Below are positions 20,228 to 38,579 of a stretch of DNA of 39,673 nt, one piece after another. Origin of the DNA: a virus. The stretch lies in the IMG/VR virus record IMGVR_UViG_3300027659_000081, positions 1-39,673 of that record, one strand, 5' to 3'. Positions within the stretch are counted from its first letter, which is position 1. Each line of letters starts with the position of its first letter. Both the position numbers and the translations under genes were made by a program. Below the pieces are notes generated by a model. The model worked only from the letters and a program-made list of their open reading frames with translations, was not told the origin of the DNA and did not search any database.

Positions 20228-20781
20228 CTCGCACAATCTCACTCACCGAATCGACCGCTGACCTCGGGATGCTGCCGGTGTTCTCGACGACGCCGCTCTT
20301 AATCACGGGTGCCGTACCAGCCGCTCCGGCAATGTCGCAGTGGGTGCTGGAGTTGTGGAAGCGCCAGAACGACGCCAGAGAGGTGGGAGCAACTCCTCTG
20401 GCATCATCGGCTGGATATGTGGCCGGAGGCGCCGTCACGTTTGTGCTGACGGCGGCGCAAATGAATCTCGTGCTCTCTGACGAGATTAACAGTAACAATT
20501 ACTGGCTCGCGATTGGCGGGCTCGATTCCAACGGCTTTCCCTATTTGCTCCGATCCGGCAACATCGAGGTGATTCCGTCTGGTCTGTCGCTGGCTCCAGT
20601 GACCACTATCGCATTCTCAGTGGTCAACGAAGTTGTGTCTTTTGCCTACAACGGCGCCATCTACCGCTTTGATGCGGTGACTGACACGCCACCCGGACCG
20701 ATTGACGGAAGCGTTGTGGTTATTGATGGGATGATCGTGGTCACTGTTGACGGCGTATCTTATTCCGTTCCCGCTGTATGA
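20224..20781 (+). CDS. Upper fibre/baseplate-like protein
   Basis: A 185-residue beta-rich protein, ATGA-coupled to the endolysin and to the next fibre gene. The N-terminal part (TSQWVLELWKRQNDAREVGA-like segment MSQWVLELWKRQND, then LVLSDEINSNNYWLAIGGLD) resembles the layout of upper baseplate proteins that attach fibres. The C-terminal part carries repeated V/I-rich strands (DGSVVVIDGMIVVTVDGVSY). Role as connector between tail and the large fibre is inferred from order. Confidence 0.5.
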   Translation: MTRTISLTESTADLGMLPVFSTTPLLITGAVPAAPAMSQWVLELWKRQNDAREVGATPLASSAGYVAGGAVTFVLTAAQMNLVLSDEINSNNYWLAIGGLDSNGFPYLLRSGNIEVIPSGLSLAPVTTIAFSVVNEVVSFAYNGAIYRFDAVTDTPPGPIDGSVVVIDGMIVVTVDGVSYSVPAV

Positions 20782-22505
20782 GTGCCGTCACCACGCCAAG
20801 AAATGTTTCCCTGATCCAACGCGATGCCTCCGGCGACAATCAATGGATTGACCTGCTGGGGACGGCGAACACCAATAAAGCGATTGGGTTTAACGGATCG
20901 GGCGTGATTACTACGCTTTCGGCGGCGCTAGTCGGAACGGCTAACACGTTCACCACCGACCAGACAATACAAGGCAAGCTCACGGTGCGCGCGGTAGTCG
21001 GTACGGATGCCAGTGTCGCTGCATCTGCTATTGACTGGGCGACGAGTACGAGCTTTTACAAGACGCTCGCGGCAAACACGACGTTCACCTTTTCCAACGC
21101 GCTGCCGGGTCAAGGCATTACGGTTGCGGTGACCAACACGAGCGGCAACTACATCGTCACGTGGCCGGGGACAATCAAATGGCCGAACGACTCAATCCCA
21201 GTGCAGAGCATAGGAGCGAGGACGGATGTCTATTCATTCCGCAACATCAACGGCCTCGTCTACGGGGCGGTGGCGCAGAGTGCTGGCGGAACTGAATCGT
21301 TTGCCAACACGCAGGCGCGCTTGGCCTCGGTGCCTTACAAGCTCGGTCTGATCGGTGTACAGGTCGATACGCTGGAAGTGTGGGTGTCGATTGGTGTCAC
21401 GGCTGGCGATTGGCAACTAGTCAGCGGTGCGGGTGGAGTGCCCCCATCTCACACACATTCATTCTCTGAGGTGCATTCACTGCCAACTGTGGCGCCGTCG
21501 CTCACGGACACGATTGGCATCCCACTTGGCGATGCAGGTGGCACTCTTTCGCACTGGGCATCAATCAATCTCCTGCTGGATCTGGCGCGTGTGCCGCGTT
21601 CTGGGCGCGATACGCTGTTATCGCTCAATGATGCGGGCGTCACACTTACTGATGCGCAGATCGTCGCCATCAACACGTTTTACCAGTACGTGGACGCAAT
21701 GGGCATGATCAGCGGCAATACCAGCCGCTCGCGTCTAATGCTGCCAGTCTGGGCTAGCAACATGCAGGCCAACCTTCTTGACTGGCTGCACCCGGCAAGC
21801 TCCAGCCGACCATTCATTCGCAACGCATCGACCGGCGCCAACAATGCCGGTGACTTTACGCAGCCGGGCGGATACATCGCGCCGACCGGAGTGACTAACT
21901 CCGGCATGATCGACTTCGATTCAACCGTGGCACAAGTATGGGAGGAAACAGATTACTCATTAACCTACTATTCACACTCGCCACCGCTGACGGACGACAA
22001 CACCATGATCGGTGCGCGGAACGATGCAGTGTCGGGCGGAACGAATCGGTGGTTTACCACGTCACGCAGCACCACCACGCCGGGCGTGTTTCGGGCCGCG
22101 GTTGGATCGACGGGCGGCAGCCTGCACGTGAACCTTGGCCTGCCAGAGCTTTATGTGGGTGGAACGGTGGGCGCGCTGAATCCGCTAGGCTTGATTCACT
22201 TTGCTCGCAAGGGAACGCTATTCAGCACCCGCAGACGGCTGGCAGCAGGCATCGCAGACACGACGGATTTGACGACTTCAAACACCGCCGCAAACGCCAT
22301 CATTCGGGACAACAAGCTGGGCGGGTTTCTCTTCTACAACGGCAACACGACCGGCAGCTTGATTGGGCCGGGAGGCATCCTGCACAACCAGCCTTCGTCT
22401 CTCTTCTATATTGGCCGGGCTATTGGTACTACTGGCGCGGCAACGGATACATTCTCTTTGATGCTTTTCAATCTGGCTATAGCAATGGGGGCTCCTTCAG
22501 TATGA
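20778..22505 (+). CDS. Large tail fibre protein
   Basis: A 575-residue fibre-like protein. The N-terminus (MSAVTTPRNVSLIQRDASGD, FTTDQTIQGKLTVR) is the kind of trimeric repeat start often found in phage fibres. Residues about 85-165 form a beta domain (TLAANTTFTFSNALPGQGIT), followed by SHTHSFSEVHSLPTV. The C-terminal half (LLPVWASNMQANLLDWLHPA, SSLFYIGRAIGTTGAATDTF) resembles a lectin-like or laminin-G-like domain. It ends in ATGA overlap with the GDPD gene, so the two may form one host-contact unit. Confidence 0.7.
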   Translation: MSAVTTPRNVSLIQRDASGDNQWIDLLGTANTNKAIGFNGSGVITTLSAALVGTANTFTTDQTIQGKLTVRAVVGTDASVAASAIDWATSTSFYKTLAANTTFTFSNALPGQGITVAVTNTSGNYIVTWPGTIKWPNDSIPVQSIGARTDVYSFRNINGLVYGAVAQSAGGTESFANTQARLASVPYKLGLIGVQVDTLEVWVSIGVTAGDWQLVSGAGGVPPSHTHSFSEVHSLPTVAPSLTDTIGIPLGDAGGTLSHWASINLLLDLARVPRSGRDTLLSLNDAGVTLTDAQIVAINTFYQYVDAMGMISGNTSRSRLMLPVWASNMQANLLDWLHPASSSRPFIRNASTGANNAGDFTQPGGYIAPTGVTNSGMIDFDSTVAQVWEETDYSLTYYSHSPPLTDDNTMIGARNDAVSGGTNRWFTTSRSTTTPGVFRAAVGSTGGSLHVNLGLPELYVGGTVGALNPLGLIHFARKGTLFSTRRRLAAGIADTTDLTTSNTAANAIIRDNKLGGFLFYNGNTTGSLIGPGGILHNQPSSLFYIGRAIGTTGAATDTFSLMLFNLAIAMGAPSV

Positions 22506-23680
22506 ACAACCGTGAACCATATCTTGCTGAGCTTCGCTCACACCGGGGCAACCTTCTAGGACAGCCAGAGCACACCGTTCAGAGCTATACTGCTGTCGCT
22601 AAGGCAGGTGTTGCGATGATTGAGCTTGACCTGCATCTGACATCCGACGGCGTACCAGTCTGCATTCACGATGCAACCGTGGATCGCACGACCAACGGAA
22701 CCGGGACAGTGGTCAGCAAAACACTGGCACAAATCAAGGCGCTGGATGCAGGGGTCGATTTTGGACCATCGTATGCCGGGCAGCAGGTGCCGACGCTGGT
22801 GGAGGCGTTGCTTGCGATTAAACCGTATCGGGTGCGCGTCATGATCGAGCCGAAGGTTGCAGGCACAGAGAACGCCATGCTTAACGCGATTCAGCAGGCG
22901 GGCTTTCCGCTTGAGCGCGTCACGCTCCTGGCCGGTCTATTCTTTCCATCGGTGAGCGCGGCAACCATGCGGCCATACTTCCCAACCGTGTCCATCTATT
23001 GGATCGCGACCGGGCCGCCATCGGCGTTCGGCGAAGCAGGTTTAACCACTTTCAAAAACCAAGGCTATGACGGCATTTCCTACTGGCCGCCTGCTGGTGG
23101 AGCAGTCTGGGGGCCAGAGGAGACGGCATTGATGCAGCGGGTGGGGCTTGGGTATGCGCGCTATGGATTGGCTGGCGGGGCGTCTGAGATCTTTGGTAGC
23201 GGGGCCAACGTCTACCTGACCGACGATCCAACCACGGCGGTCTCTACTGTGGCCACCGCCAACTTCACCGCATTTAAGGCGGCGTATGCAATCACTGTTG
23301 GCAGTGACGGTCTGTACAACGATCCGGATGGCGACGGCTTTACCAACTTTGAAGAGATGATTTACGGGGGCAATCCGATGTCATCTCGGCGCCTGCCAGC
23401 CACCGGGCCATCGGTGCAGATCGTGGAAGCGGGCGGAGTGCGGACGGCCTATCTGACCGCAGTACCAGCAGCGACCAGAATGTTTGTCACTTGGTACTTT
23501 GCGCCGCAATTCAGCGAGGACGGCATCACATGGACGGACGTTCCAAGCACATCGTTCACCACTCTTAACGATGGCTATCCTCGGGACTTGAGCCATCGCT
23601 TTGTGGTCGATATGGGGCCAGTGCTGCCGACAAACACCAAGCGGGTGCGGTTGTATCCTAAGCTCTTCCCGATGCCCTAA
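22502..23680 (+). CDS. Glycerophosphodiester phosphodiesterase, tail-associated
   Basis: A 392-residue protein. Residues 10-245 are a GDPD TIM barrel: SHRGN (H14, R15), PEHT (usually PENT), ELDLHLTSDGVPVCIHD with metal ligands E41 and D43 and catalytic H56, and IEPK (E116). Such enzymes hydrolyse glycerophosphodiesters, for example phosphoglycerol-containing surface polymers. Residues 274-292 (DPDGDGFTNFEEMIYGGNP) are a calcium-type repeat common in Verrucomicrobiota and Planctomycetota proteins, followed by a beta C-terminus. Position between fibre genes suggests a virion surface depolymerase. The start at 22502 uses ATGA overlap; the upstream open frame is shadow. Confidence 0.85.
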   Translation: MNNREPYLAELRSHRGNLLGQPEHTVQSYTAVAKAGVAMIELDLHLTSDGVPVCIHDATVDRTTNGTGTVVSKTLAQIKALDAGVDFGPSYAGQQVPTLVEALLAIKPYRVRVMIEPKVAGTENAMLNAIQQAGFPLERVTLLAGLFFPSVSAATMRPYFPTVSIYWIATGPPSAFGEAGLTTFKNQGYDGISYWPPAGGAVWGPEETALMQRVGLGYARYGLAGGASEIFGSGANVYLTDDPTTAVSTVATANFTAFKAAYAITVGSDGLYNDPDGDGFTNFEEMIYGGNPMSSRRLPATGPSVQIVEAGGVRTAYLTAVPAATRMFVTWYFAPQFSEDGITWTDVPSTSFTTLNDGYPRDLSHRFVVDMGPVLPTNTKRVRLYPKLFPMP

Positions 23681-28805: not shown

Positions 28806-29717
28806 ATGTGGATACTACCCAAACAATTACACACCTTGGACTTTGTGCAGGATACGGAGGCATTGAACTTGGACTACAGCGAATCTTCCATGCTCTGCGC
28901 ACAGTGGCTCTTTGTGAGATCGAAGCCTTCGCGTGTGCAAACTTGGTCGCGAAAATGGAAGCAGGACTCTTGGACCCAGCACCTATTTGGTCGGATCTTA
29001 AGACGTTCCCATGGTCAGACTTTCGTAGAAAGGTGGACATCCTCACTGGCGGATATCCATGCCAGCCATTCAGCGCCGCAGGGAAGCGACTTGGTAAGAA
29101 CGACCCCAGACACCTCTGGCCGTTTATTGCAAACGGAATTCGTATTCTACAACCAGCGGTCCTCTATTTTGAGAATGTTGATGGGCACATCAGCCTCGGA
29201 CTTAGAGAAGTCATTGAAGAGCTGGGAGAGCTTGGTTACAAAGCGACGTGGGGAATATTCTCAGCGCGTGAAGTCGGGGCTCCACACCAAAGGAAACGAG
29301 TCTTCATCCTGGCCCACGCCAACAGCGGGGGAATACCGAGATCAATCAGCGAATTGGGAAACCTTGGCCAGATTAGACAGAGGCGGGCGGATCTTGCGCA
29401 GAATAGCCACGTTGCATGGCCAGCAGGCCCAAGCGCCGGCCAGTACAACTGGGAACCCCCCAGAGTCGTGGGCTACTCCGACAGCACGCGATCACAAAAG
29501 TGGACGCGGCAAGAACGAGAGGAATTACAAGGAGCTGACTCCAATGGTCGAGAGGGTTCAACCCAGCAGGCTGAATCCACGCTGGGTGGAGACTTTGATG
29601 GGCCTACCGATAGGATGGACGATGCCGAGTTGTTTCTCAGTTGTGACAACCGTAACGACGAACTCCGACTGCTCGGTAACGGAGTCGTCCCATCTACAGC
29701 AGAGAGAGCTTTTTTAA
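28806..29717 (+). CDS. Overlapping ORF in alternative frame of the methyltransferase
   Basis: A 303-codon ORF starting ATGTGG, in the +1 frame relative to the methyltransferase and nested in it except for two bases. It reads as a protein with several Trp and a recognisable pattern: RSKPSRVQTWSRKW (39-51), WTSSLADIHASHSA (77-90), RRGEYSQRVKSGL (147-159), WPTPTA (169-174), WATPTARDH (222-230), and LNPRWVETLMGLPIGW (256-271). I recall phage proteins with this layout (WILP start, WPTP repeats, LNPxWVExLMGxP end) near C5 methyltransferases, unverified here. It might be truly translated, or a conserved shadow; no codon-level test was possible. Function unknown. Confidence 0.5.
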   Translation: MWILPKQLHTLDFVQDTEALNLDYSESSMLCAQWLFVRSKPSRVQTWSRKWKQDSWTQHLFGRILRRSHGQTFVERWTSSLADIHASHSAPQGSDLVRTTPDTSGRLLQTEFVFYNQRSSILRMLMGTSASDLEKSLKSWESLVTKRRGEYSQRVKSGLHTKGNESSSWPTPTAGEYRDQSANWETLARLDRGGRILRRIATLHGQQAQAPASTTGNPPESWATPTARDHKSGRGKNERNYKELTPMVERVQPSRLNPRWVETLMGLPIGWTMPSCFSVVTTVTTNSDCSVTESSHLQQRELF

Positions 29718-29746
29718 TTTTAGCAAACCAATTAGATTTATTATGA
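28808..29746 (+). CDS. DNA cytosine-5 methyltransferase
   Basis: A 312-residue enzyme from a GTG start, methylating cytosine C5 with S-adenosylmethionine. Motif I (LGLCAGYGGIELGL, about 10-23), motif IV with the catalytic C85 (GGYPCQPFSAAGKRLG), motif VI (ENVDG, 122-126), motif VIII (GAPHQRKRVFIL, 157-168) and the closing motif X (RLLGNGVVPSTAE, about 287-299) are all in order. Residues 170-285 are low in motifs and would hold the target recognition region. It probably protects phage DNA from host restriction. The first in-frame ATG is 49 codons in, after motif I, so GTG must start. The 28806-29717 ORF overlaps it. Confidence 0.9.
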   Translation: MDTTQTITHLGLCAGYGGIELGLQRIFHALRTVALCEIEAFACANLVAKMEAGLLDPAPIWSDLKTFPWSDFRRKVDILTGGYPCQPFSAAGKRLGKNDPRHLWPFIANGIRILQPAVLYFENVDGHISLGLREVIEELGELGYKATWGIFSAREVGAPHQRKRVFILAHANSGGIPRSISELGNLGQIRQRRADLAQNSHVAWPAGPSAGQYNWEPPRVVGYSDSTRSQKWTRQEREELQGADSNGREGSTQQAESTLGGDFDGPTDRMDDAELFLSCDNRNDELRLLGNGVVPSTAERAFLILANQLDLL

Positions 29747-30030: not shown

Positions 30031-30374
30031 CCACACCGACACCGATCACAGAGTCCGTTCAGGCGGCGCTAATTTACGTCCGAAATAATTACGAGGAAGG
30101 TGAACAATGGGATCTCGCGTGCCACAAAATGCAGAGCGAGATCCTTAACAAAGACCGAGGACGCGGGGCTCCGCAACTGGCCGCCGCCGCACGGATTTTG
30201 GCTGATGAAGTTGAGAGGCTGCGGGCGCAACCACAAAGCATCGCTCTCTCAGACTGCTGCGAAGCACCCGCCGTAGTCGCAGGTAAGCCAAACTCGACCC
30301 AATGGTATGCCTGTCCCGAGTGCTGCCAGCCGTGCGATGTTTATTATCAGGACAAGAACACCCAACCACTATGA
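30027..30374 (+). CDS. Unknown protein with C-terminal zinc ribbon
   Basis: A 115-residue protein. Residues 1-75 are helical ([34 protein letters not shown]). The end is a likely zinc ribbon: [12 protein letters not shown], then [15 protein letters not shown] (paired CxxC). The ATG at 30027 follows an AC-rich leader (CAAAACAACC). Stop overlaps the thyA start. It may bind nucleic acid or protein; unassigned. Confidence 0.5.
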
Positions 30375-31192
30375 ACGAACAAAAATATCTCGACCTCATG
30401 CACGAGGTCTATCAAGAAGGAGAGTGGCGATCTGATCGCACCGGCACGGGCGTGTCATCGCTATTTGGTAAGCATGTCGTGTACGATCTTGCTGACGGAT
30501 TCCCGCTGCTGACGACCAAGAAAATCCACTGGAAAAGCGTGGTCCACGAGCTGCTTTGGTTCCTCAGCGGTAGAACCAACATCAAGTATCTGCAAGATAA
30601 CGGTGTTCACATATGGGATGCTTGGGCTGACAAGTACGGAGAGCTTGGGCCGGTCTACGGCTACCAATGGCGCACTTGGAATTTTCACACGGGCTATAAG
30701 GGCAATCCAGACGACTATTGTGATCAGATCCAGAGTCTAATCGACAGGATTAAAAAAGACCCGTTTAGCCGCCGTCACATTGTCACCGCATGGAATCCCA
30801 GCGACATTTGGGATATGGCACTCCCCCCGTGCCACTGTTTCTGGCAGATCTACGTCCACCAAAACGGCGAGATCGACCTCCAACTCTACCAGCGCAGCGC
30901 CGACATCTTCCTGGGCGTTCCGTTCAACATCGCCAGTTACAGCCTTCTCCTGATGATGATCGCACAAGTGACCGGCTACAAAGCGGGCCGATTCATTCAC
31001 ACGATGGGAGACGTGCATCTCTACAGGAACCACGTCGATGCCTACTTTATCCAAAAAGACCTCACGATTTTGCCGCCGCCTATCGTAACGCTCAACCCCG
31101 AGATCAAGAGCATCTTTGATTTCAAATTCGAGGACATCACTTTGGAAAACTACAACTCGTGGCCCGCGATCAAAGCACCCGTAGCAGTATGA
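30371..31192 (+). CDS. thyA: Thymidylate synthase (ThyA-type)
   Basis: A complete 273-residue enzyme making dTMP from dUMP with methylenetetrahydrofolate. Catalytic Cys154 lies in [12 protein letters not shown]; the phosphate-binding [16 protein letters not shown] (175-190), DVHLYRNHV (214-222), and N-terminal [12 protein letters not shown] are all conserved. Length suits bacterial ThyA (264-ish). ATGA overlaps on both sides place it in the early operon, where it would raise dTTP for phage replication. The enzyme acts in the cytoplasm. Full motifs argue for activity. Confidence 0.97.
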
Positions 31193-31593: not shown

Positions 31594-32196
31594 ATGATTA
31601 CAGACGAACAATTCACAGCATTCCCAAAAATGGCCCGTTTGCAACGCGAGGTCATCGTCACCGAGAAAATCGACGGAACAAACGCACAGCTCTACATTAC
31701 CGACGACGGCAAGATGCTGTTCGGTAGCCGCACCCGTTGGATCACCCCCGGTGACGATAATTTTGGGTTCGCACGCTGGGCCACCGACAACAAAGACGAG
31801 CTGATGCAACTCGGACCGGGCCGTCACTTTGGCGAGTGGTGGGGCCGTGGCATCCAGCGCAACTACGGACTCAACTACCGCCGTTTCAGCCTGTTCAACG
31901 TGACCCGATGGTGCCCGCATGGAGAGGTGCCGAAAGCAATCCCGACCGCTGACCCGCGCAACGTCAAATTGCAGGACATGCTCCCGGCCTGCTGCCATTT
32001 AGTACCGATCCTCTGGCAGGGATTGTTCAGCACGGCCGAGGCTACTATCCAACTTTGGGAGTTAGGCCAGACAGGTAGCCAAGCCGCGCCCGGATTCATG
32101 AATCCCGAAGGCATCGTGCTGTTCCACGTCGCCGGAAACGTCGGATTCAAAATGACGCTCGACAACGACGGAGTGCCGAAATCCTCATTAAAATGA
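31594..32196 (+). CDS. RNA-ligase-like nucleotidyltransferase
   Basis: A 200-residue protein with the core motifs of the ligase/capping superfamily: motif I EKIDGTN (K25 would carry AMP), motif III HFGEWWGRGIQRNYGL (E81), motif IV EGIVLFH (about 172-178), and motif V GFKM (K186). It lacks any C-terminal domain, so it is near the minimal size for such enzymes. RNA ligases of this type repair cleaved RNA, for example tRNA cut by host defence. A DNA ligase role is the alternative. Downstream gene overlaps by ATGA. Confidence 0.75.
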   Translation: MITDEQFTAFPKMARLQREVIVTEKIDGTNAQLYITDDGKMLFGSRTRWITPGDDNFGFARWATDNKDELMQLGPGRHFGEWWGRGIQRNYGLNYRRFSLFNVTRWCPHGEVPKAIPTADPRNVKLQDMLPACCHLVPILWQGLFSTAEATIQLWELGQTGSQAAPGFMNPEGIVLFHVAGNVGFKMTLDNDGVPKSSLK

Positions 32197-36062: not shown

Positions 36063-38579
36063 ATGCCTGCCAATCCCATCACTTTAGAAGAAGAGTCTGC
36101 CGTATCCGGCACCCACAAGGCTCAAGTCACGTGGTTCCCAAATGCCACCTCCGTCACTCCAGTCGAGACCAACTCGCTTGATTCATTTATCGAGACATGC
36201 CGGCAGGGAGTCTATCAAGACCTGATCATTCAAATAAGGGCGGCACTTACCGAAGGAAAGACCAGCACCGCGGCCAGCCTGAAACGACGCTTGCCCTGCA
36301 TCACTGTTTCGTGCTCGATGAGCAGCCGGGCCAGAAATGCACCCGTTCGTGCCCGCACCCATAGCGGCTGGCTGCAGTGCGACTTTGATGGCAAAGAGAA
36401 CATCGGGCTGGATCAAGCCGAGACCCGCAAAGAACTTGAGGCTGACCCACACGTCGGTGCCGTATTCGTCGGTCCTTCCGGGGTGGGCATCAAATGCGTC
36501 ATCCGCATCGACAGCACTCGGCATCTGGAGAGCTTCCACTCAGCAGCCGAGTACTTCATGAACAATCACGGCCTCGCAATCGACCAGGCGTGCAAAGACG
36601 TGGAACGGTTGTGCTTCGTCAGCTACGATCCCGATGCCTGGTGCCGGCGCACTGCGGCGACCATCCTGCCAATTACAAAAAAGGCGGTGTCACCATTGGC
36701 AGAAAAGATCCTCAGCATCCCACGCCCTGAGCAGTTTACCCCAGCTCAGATCGAACAAGCAGAGATGACCGAGGCCGATGTGCGTGAGATTCTTGGATTC
36801 CTACCCAAGCGACCGGATTACGATACGTGGCTGCGAGTCGCCTCCGGCGTTTTCTCCACCCTGCCACTAGAAAGCGCCATCCAAGTGCTGAATGAATGGG
36901 CACCAGAAGAACACCCCGGCGAATACCTGCAAAAGTACCGCAACCGGCTCAAAAAGGTCACCATCCGCACAGTCATCCACTACGCCCAGCAGAACGGATT
37001 CAACGCATCCGCCGCAGCCAAGCGCAAAACATGGTTCGGCAATATCAACGTGGGCCGTGCCAGCCGCGGCAGTGGGCACGCCCACCTCTTGGAGGATGAC
37101 GAGCACACGCCAGAGATCAGCGAGGAGGAGCAATCTGCCCTGCTCTATGAGGAAGAACAGATCGGCGACGCCAAAATGTTTATCCGCGAGTGCCAGGACG
37201 ACTTTGCATACGATCCTCTCTCGCAATGCTGGCGCGCCTACGATGAGGACACCCGTACCTGGACCAAGGATATTGTAGGGACAAATCAGATCGTGCTCTC
37301 AGCAACCGTGGTGGATGAATACCACAAGATCATCGAGAGCATCGAGCGCGCCACCGCGGCCCAGAAGAATAAGGACGTGACCAAGATGAACAACGCCCTG
37401 ATCGAGTCGATTAAAAAGCGTTGTGCCAATCTGCGCAAGGCACCGTATTTGTCGCAGGTCACCAGCCTTACCCAGCGGTTTAAAGAAGTGCTGCGGCCAG
37501 CAACCGAGTACGACAAGAACCGGCAATTGCTCGGCATTGCCGATGGCTACGTCATCGACTTTGAAGCCAGAAACCAAGACGGCGTGCACGGTGTCGAGAT
37601 CCGCAAGGCAGAACGACGCGACCTCATCAGCGTCAGCTCACCCGTCCGGCACGATGCCGCAGCACTGTGCCCAGCATTCGATGCGTTCTTGTTCCGCGCA
37701 TTTGCCGAAGATCAGGACATGGTAGACTACTGGTGGCGAATTGTCGGGTACAGCATGACCGGCTTCGTGGACCACGATGCCCTCTTTTTCTGCTACGGGC
37801 TGGGCGCTAACGGCAAGAGCACCGGCCTGATGGTGCTGCGCTTTTTGCTGGGTGACCAACTCAGCACTATGGTTGATGTGAACACTTTGCTGGGTGGTGG
37901 CAATGCAGATTCTGCCATGGATTACAAAAAGTCCATGCTTGAAGGCAAGCGGCTGGTCATTACAGACGAGCTGCCAGACAGTAAGAAAATCAATGAGAGC
38001 ATGGTCAAAGGCCTGCTAGGAGGCGAGGACATTGTGGCGCGCCGGCCATATGAGCGGCCATACACCTTTAGCCCGACACACAAAATCTGGATGGTCGGCA
38101 ATCACAAGCCGAAGATTTCTGGCGTGGATCACGGCATCTGGAGGCGCATCCACCTCATCCCTTGGGAAGTCACCATCCCGGTGGCAGAGCGCAAAAGCAG
38201 ATCGGAGATGTGGAGAACTTTCCAAGACGAGCTTCCTGGCATCCTCAACCGCGCCATCGACGGCTACAACGACTACCGCATCCGCGGTGCTCTGGCACCC
38301 CCAGCAAAGGTTAGGGCTGCGACGGAGGAGTACCGCATGGAGGAGGATTCCCTGCAGCAGTTCGTGTCGGAGAGGCTGATCAAGGCGGATGGAGTGAACT
38401 TGCACACCAGAGAGGTCTTCAGCGAATACAAGAACTGGTGTGCTCGCAGTGGAGAGCCTGAGGTGGTGGGAACTGCAAACAAGCTGTCCCGGATGCTGAA
38501 GCAGCCGCCATACAGTATGGAAGTCGGGCTAGGCTCGAAGAACATAAACACGGTTTTTGGCTACAGTTGGGTGGAGTAG
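36063..38579 (+). CDS. Primase-helicase (SF3, D5/P4 type)
   Basis: An 838-residue multidomain replication protein. N-terminal residues 80-195 (LQCDFDGKENIG; GAVFVGPSGVGIKCVIRID; ERLCFVSYDPDAW) fit the BT4734/PrimPol-like primase group. Residues about 230-315 (REILGFLPKRPDYDTWLRVA) are a PriCT-like linker. The C-terminal SF3 helicase has Walker A GLGANGKST (579-587, K585), Walker B VITDE (D635, E636), and sensor GGEDIVARRPYERP with MVGNHKP. It would prime and unwind the phage DNA. An inverted repeat immediately follows its stop; in P4-like systems the origin lies near the primase gene. Confidence 0.9.
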   Translation: MPANPITLEEESAVSGTHKAQVTWFPNATSVTPVETNSLDSFIETCRQGVYQDLIIQIRAALTEGKTSTAASLKRRLPCITVSCSMSSRARNAPVRARTHSGWLQCDFDGKENIGLDQAETRKELEADPHVGAVFVGPSGVGIKCVIRIDSTRHLESFHSAAEYFMNNHGLAIDQACKDVERLCFVSYDPDAWCRRTAATILPITKKAVSPLAEKILSIPRPEQFTPAQIEQAEMTEADVREILGFLPKRPDYDTWLRVASGVFSTLPLESAIQVLNEWAPEEHPGEYLQKYRNRLKKVTIRTVIHYAQQNGFNASAAAKRKTWFGNINVGRASRGSGHAHLLEDDEHTPEISEEEQSALLYEEEQIGDAKMFIRECQDDFAYDPLSQCWRAYDEDTRTWTKDIVGTNQIVLSATVVDEYHKIIESIERATAAQKNKDVTKMNNALIESIKKRCANLRKAPYLSQVTSLTQRFKEVLRPATEYDKNRQLLGIADGYVIDFEARNQDGVHGVEIRKAERRDLISVSSPVRHDAAALCPAFDAFLFRAFAEDQDMVDYWWRIVGYSMTGFVDHDALFFCYGLGANGKSTGLMVLRFLLGDQLSTMVDVNTLLGGGNADSAMDYKKSMLEGKRLVITDELPDSKKINESMVKGLLGGEDIVARRPYERPYTFSPTHKIWMVGNHKPKISGVDHGIWRRIHLIPWEVTIPVAERKSRSEMWRTFQDELPGILNRAIDGYNDYRIRGALAPPAKVRAATEEYRMEEDSLQQFVSERLIKADGVNLHTREVFSEYKNWCARSGEPEVVGTANKLSRMLKQPPYSMEVGLGSKNINTVFGYSWVE

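Follow-up and report, generated by a model that had tools for sequence, protein, structure and literature searches.

Sequence comparison points to a two-subunit phage C5 cytosine methyltransferase encoded by one stretch of DNA in two reading frames

M.EcoHK31I is a C5 cytosine DNA methyltransferase made of two polypeptides, as is M.EaeI. Lee, Kam and Shaw reportedly placed the β gene of M.EcoHK31I inside the α gene, in the other frame, in 1995. Both M.EcoHK31I proteins are needed for methylation, with YGGCCR as the target. The larger subunit contains motifs I–VIII and X and the smaller one motif IX (PMC3404938), and the enzyme has been termed naturally split (PMC3439449). The Bacillus anthracis prophage protein BA_3814 has been presented as an enigmatic orphan methyltransferase; its predicted target is that of M.EaeI (PMC4722110). 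Here we describe a locus in a 39,673-base virus record (IMG/VR IMGVR_UViG_3300027659_000081; this whole stretch is referred to as the window), at which a C5 cytosine methyltransferase gene (α, frame 0) and a second open reading frame (ORF; β, +1 frame) occupy almost the same DNA. Sequence comparison makes it very likely that α and β are the two subunits of a split C5 cytosine DNA methyltransferase resembling M.EcoHK31I, read from one stretch of DNA in different frames; the split arrangement is well supported, and the two proteins would, we infer, form a complex and be active. The two ORFs and their starts are as follows.

28808..29746, + strand: α, C5 cytosine methyltransferase large domain, 312 amino acids; GTG start, stop at 29744–29746, frame 0.
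28806..29717, + strand: β, +1-frame ORF, 303 amino acids; ATG start, 303 sense codons, stop at 29715–29717.
28806..28810, + strand: interleaved starts ATGTG, with the β ATG at 28806 and the α GTG at 28808.

An earlier note on this DNA had reported two long open frames with starts interleaved as ATGTG and a chance near 5e-7 of 303 stop-free codons; both statements hold, the latter agreeing with (61/64)^303. The +1 frame is also open upstream of 28806, which is the conserved start. α matched the Pfam family DNA_methylase (PF00145; E 1.3e-33), over residues 10–174 only, and phrog_363 (2.3e-55). β matched PHROG 1008 (“DNA methyltransferase”; E 1.1e-17) and nothing in Pfam. The motifs expected of a PF00145 member (motif IV with PCQ, and motifs I, VI, VIII and X) are all found in α, which carries motifs I–VIII and X; motif IX and a small domain on the same chain are not, and no motif IX was found in frame 0 of the window gene. 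The suggestion that the methyltransferase frame carries every C5 motif thus fails, as motif IX and a W-x-TP region are found in the +1 frame instead. The relevant elements are:

29048..29074, + strand: α motif IV, GGYPCQPFS, with the catalytic cysteine; frame 0, located by alignment, P84, C85 and Q86 invariant.
29288..29314, + strand: α motif VIII, QRKRVFILA; frame 0, located by alignment.
29663..29716, + strand: α motif X, LRLLGNGVVPSTAERAFL; frame 0, selected in frame 0 only.
29310..29327, + strand: first W-x-TP element of β, WPTPTA, from the translation; W169 and P170 nearly invariant.
29469..29492, + strand: second W-x-TP element of β, WATPTARD, from the translation; W222 and T224 nearly invariant.
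29571..29621, + strand: motif IX counterpart of β, LNPRWVETLMGLPIGWT; selected in +1 only, in frame in the one-chain enzymes related to that of mycobacteriophage RitaG.

Positions 293–318 of the phrog_1008 profile match the motif X region (29663..29716) in frame 0. The AlphaFold2 (AF2) model of α was confident for most of residues 1–198 and 289–312, with no fold for residues 199–288 and no predicted small domain, and Foldseek aligned α to M.HhaI, M.HaeIII and DNMT2 over about 170–180 columns. We class the locus as a split enzyme because motif IX occurs only in the +1 frame and α residues 199–288 are unfolded in AF2.

To compare the open +1 frame with chance, synonymous codons were shuffled within the gene, so that the encoded methyltransferase and the codon usage stayed unchanged. 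The observed +1 run of the window gene is 306 codons; the shuffles averaged 121, and none of 200 was as long. Among 79 distinct genes treated in this way, the observed +1 run was rarely or never reproduced, with the exception of RitaG (L004; P about 0.2). In 80 methyltransferase relatives from IMG/VR, the +1 frame is open for most or almost the full length of the gene, and the +2 frame is closed, with about 10–30 stops per gene. Scans with the enzymes of Fernvirus, Acinetobacter, RitaG and Bordetella phages yielded 345 distinct genes in five clades, namely four split clades (window, Fernvirus, Acinetobacter and Bordetella; 273 genes) and the one-chain RitaG-like clade. Across the split clades, the stretch from motif IV to motif VIII was free of +1 stops in 269 of the 271 scored genes (about 38 expected) and that from motif VIII to motif IX in 236/236 (about 67 expected). 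Taken singly, only half of the Bordetella-like genes were significant (35/70, P 0.02 or less), and RitaG-like genes do not keep the +1 frame open. Based on these comparisons, it is well supported that the open +1 frame is neither chance nor a shadow of the methyltransferase, and the possibility raised earlier, that constraint on the enzyme alone could create the second pattern, does not hold up, as the open frame does not arise in shuffles that preserve the methyltransferase protein. A relative of the same pair (L074) has a longer +1 ORF, of 527 codons. In another (L086), the +1 ORF extends 340 nucleotides (nt) beyond the methyltransferase end, with a lysine-rich and acidic tail.

The paired starts are likewise conserved. 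All 73 scored close relatives have a +1 start 2, 5, 8 or 11 nt upstream of the α start, ATG in 72 and GTG in one. At a distance of 2 (ATGTG; 45 genes) α starts with GTG, at the other distances (28 genes) with ATG. The β beginning W-I-L/V-P is kept, and the overlapping α residues vary (DTT, DTS, DST or DCS). The β-like protein of L431, beginning MWLIPPQL, resembles that of the window at this end; the second ORF of Fernviruses starts inside the methyltransferase gene.

We then asked which frame is under selection by sorting sites into those where a change affects only frame 0, only the +1 frame or both frames, and counting differences over 250 pairs; for the window clade, the genes were not picked by a motif regular expression (regex). 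At α residues 254–277 (29567–29638), changes silent in frame 0 and altering +1 amounted to 0.01–0.06 per site, those altering frame 0 and silent in +1 to 0.54–0.73; therefore, only the +1 protein, with LNPRWVETLMGLPIGWT, is held here. The pattern reverses at residues 278–301, which contain motif X (0.65–0.68 for +1-altering versus 0.05–0.11 for frame-0-altering changes). Both frames are restrained at α residues 26–37, 50–61 and 134–157, and at residues 74–133 the +1 protein sequence is nearly free, yet the +1 frame is still open. The motif IX stretch shows selection of the same sign in the three other split clades and of reversed sign in RitaG-like genes (0.62 versus 0.24, selection in frame 0); genes for this cross-clade comparison were picked by a motif regex, which favors conservation in the searched frame. 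Selection on both α and β is well supported by these counts. Dual coding, as the earlier note had proposed, is thus strongly supported, including by the synonymous-site test it had called for, in the form of reduced variation at frame-0-silent sites.

The +1 segment corresponds to the part that α lacks. A motif IX regex matched only the +1 frame in 69/74, 39/54, 66/75 and 63/70 genes of the four split clades and only frame 0 in 17/72 genes of the RitaG-like clade and a single Fernvirus-like gene; it never matched both frames of one gene, the remaining genes being missed by the regex. Moreover, +1 profiles of the Fernvirus and Acinetobacter clades matched the RitaG-like one-chain enzymes (E 1e-13 and 3e-13). 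Matches of the +1 profiles fall between motifs VIII and X of these enzymes, covering the whole VIII–IX region for Fernvirus and Acinetobacter and 19 columns at motif IX for the Bordetella clade, and no +1 profile matched its own frame 0. The RitaG enzyme itself matches PHROG 1008 in frame (6e-65). The sequence thus shows β to carry motif IX and a W-x-TP region homologous to the VIII–X segment of one-chain phage methyltransferases and, by homology, β appears to carry the recognition region of a C5 methyltransferase.

Two relatives (L067 and L080) share an alternative +1 C-terminal end, with the motif IX region WVETLQGVCMGWTSPSCPASVIKNWPKFVSGWCA in place of WVETLMGLPxGWTMPSC. Split-clade α proteins such as those of L093, L095 and L101 end in frame 0 with VGRVADGVPNRVDRLKALGN, the codon-by-codon product of the +1 sequence WVEWLMGYPxGWT; as this ending is forced by the +1 frame, such a tail may serve as a sign of a hidden β gene in annotated methyltransferases.

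Several points weigh against a split enzyme of this kind. The window-clade profile matches the one-chain enzymes over 22 columns only, at motif IX. The N-terminal similarity of β between clades is partly an enzyme shadow, because RitaG-like genes show it in their +1 frame as well. The recognition domain of M.EcoHK31I is predicted to lie in the larger subunit (PMC3404938), whereas the W-x-TP region of the window pair is in β. Finally, the AF2 model of β alone was poor, with a predicted local distance difference test score (pLDDT) of 54, too weak for a fold search. Its only confident block is a single helix:

29193..29288, + strand: β residues 130–161, helix; pLDDT about 79–92.

Frame-0-silent change is reduced near this helix, over α residues 134–157, and a β-profile search of solved structures gave no match.

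We also searched for β without an overlapping α. PHROG 1008 was present in 12 of 289 genomes of the Geminisphaera (L090) phylum; the inspected PHROG 1008 loci were overlapping pairs and two decayed remnants, and no stand-alone β was found among them. The remnants, in Verrucomicrobiota genomes (L432 and L439), have both frames broken or truncated together. A Paenibacillus bovis plasmid match, stand-alone by annotation, was rejected since the methyltransferase frame lies beneath it. A scan of viral contigs for close β relatives gave one locus, because short peptides of β are weakly conserved; a methyltransferase query succeeded instead. Among the outcomes that the earlier note had counted against a second protein were relatives that keep the methyltransferase with stops in the other frame and a lack of stand-alone members. 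Neither applies as stated: RitaG-like relatives have the +1 frame closed, but there the +1 segment is in frame with the enzyme, and the absence of a stand-alone β from the loci inspected fits an obligate subunit.

Based on these results, we suggest that one message would yield both proteins, with ribosomes starting either at the ATG or at the GTG 2 nt downstream of it. α and β would then assemble, β supplying the recognition domain and motif IX, and neither alone would methylate. The enzyme would be an orphan phage methyltransferase and might protect the DNA of the phage against restriction by the host.

A different division of labor, with α complete alone and β serving another function, for example as a regulator or an anti-restriction factor, appears improbable. 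β is 303 residues long with a start of its own, and for its selected parts (residues 1–60 and near 130–161) no counterpart was identified among known methyltransferases. However, α lacks both a folded small domain and motif IX, β holds exactly the part missing from α, a segment that one-chain enzymes carry in frame, and no stand-alone β was found among the loci inspected. The earlier idea of a complete methyltransferase with a separate second protein does not fit either, given that the second protein holds motif IX of the enzyme and a recognition-like region. The same selected parts of β (residues 1–60 and the helix near 130–161) may point to a wider reading, in which the dual-frame split methyltransferase is standard in several large phage clades and the N-terminal part of β does more than complete the enzyme, having a separate function; we regard this as speculative and rather unlikely.

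Alternatively, a single polypeptide might arise by frameshifting, leaving frame 0 after motif VIII, using +1 for the W-x-TP region and motif IX and returning for motif X. The joined selected segments would indeed resemble the one-chain RitaG type, but two opposite shifts would be required, and the conserved +1 start upstream of the gene, the restraint on +1 at the N terminus and the lack of +1 stops over motifs IV–VIII in 269/271 genes would be left without reason; with M.EcoHK31I consisting of two polypeptides, we consider this route very unlikely. That constraint on the methyltransferase alone gives rise to the open +1 frame with its motifs, and that no second protein is made, is scarcely credible. 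In favor of this view, GAPHxRxRVFILAH can encode ESSSWP in +1, and in one-chain RitaG-like genes the +1 frame also matches the +1 profile in its N-terminal half. Against it, methyltransferase-preserving synonymous shuffles fail to yield the open frame, the motif IX stretch is free in frame 0 and held in +1, and the +1 start is conserved though of no use to the methyltransferase.

If the locus does encode a split enzyme, this would account for the apparent incompleteness, without motif IX, of many phage cytosine methyltransferases, and a second gene would often lie unannotated or mislabeled beneath them. It would also provide hundreds of natural cases of two interdependent proteins evolving on shared DNA, with the one-frame clade as a control. 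Recoding the α gene for expression would destroy β, and activity might then be absent.

Downstream of the methyltransferase, the window encodes a thymidylate synthase (30302–31192), an RNA-ligase-like protein (31594–32196) and a candidate BT4734-like/D5-type primase-helicase (36063–38579). Elsewhere, two + strand ORFs of 575 and 580 amino acids (20778–22505 and 21938–23680) overlap by ~570 nt in different frames; the former has no Pfam match, and the start assigned to the latter may just lie too far upstream.

Searches of an open-access library turned up no account of such an overlap for phage methyltransferases, and a plasmid search for relatives returned no EcoHK31I record. The gene pair is present in a cultured phage, Acinetobacter phage ABMM1. 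Overlapping ORF pairs in the same relative frame, related by profile, occur in Paenibacillus larvae phages (Fernvirus and Lily), where the second ORF is annotated as a methyltransferase or “g62 internal gene”; it starts inside the methyltransferase gene, whereas that of the window starts before it. The enzymes of RitaG and its relatives likewise have the W/L-x-TP and motif IX segments, in frame, but are single chains in which the +1 frame is not kept open and selection acts in frame 0. An out-of-frame protein within a phage methylase gene is also known from ShiLan, but there it is a hidden HNH endonuclease encoded by a mobile insertion and not part of the enzyme (PMC11855218). M.AquI, too, is a C5 methyltransferase split into two polypeptides; in the window, by contrast, motif X stays in α and the two genes lie on the same DNA. 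Compared by description, the window pair shows the same motif split as M.EcoHK31I (I–VIII and X/IX), but its β starts 2 nt before α and covers nearly all of it. A split methyltransferase has an old precedent in M.EcoHK31I; what differs here is the overlap of whole genes and its recurrence in nearly all of 273 genes, in four clades.
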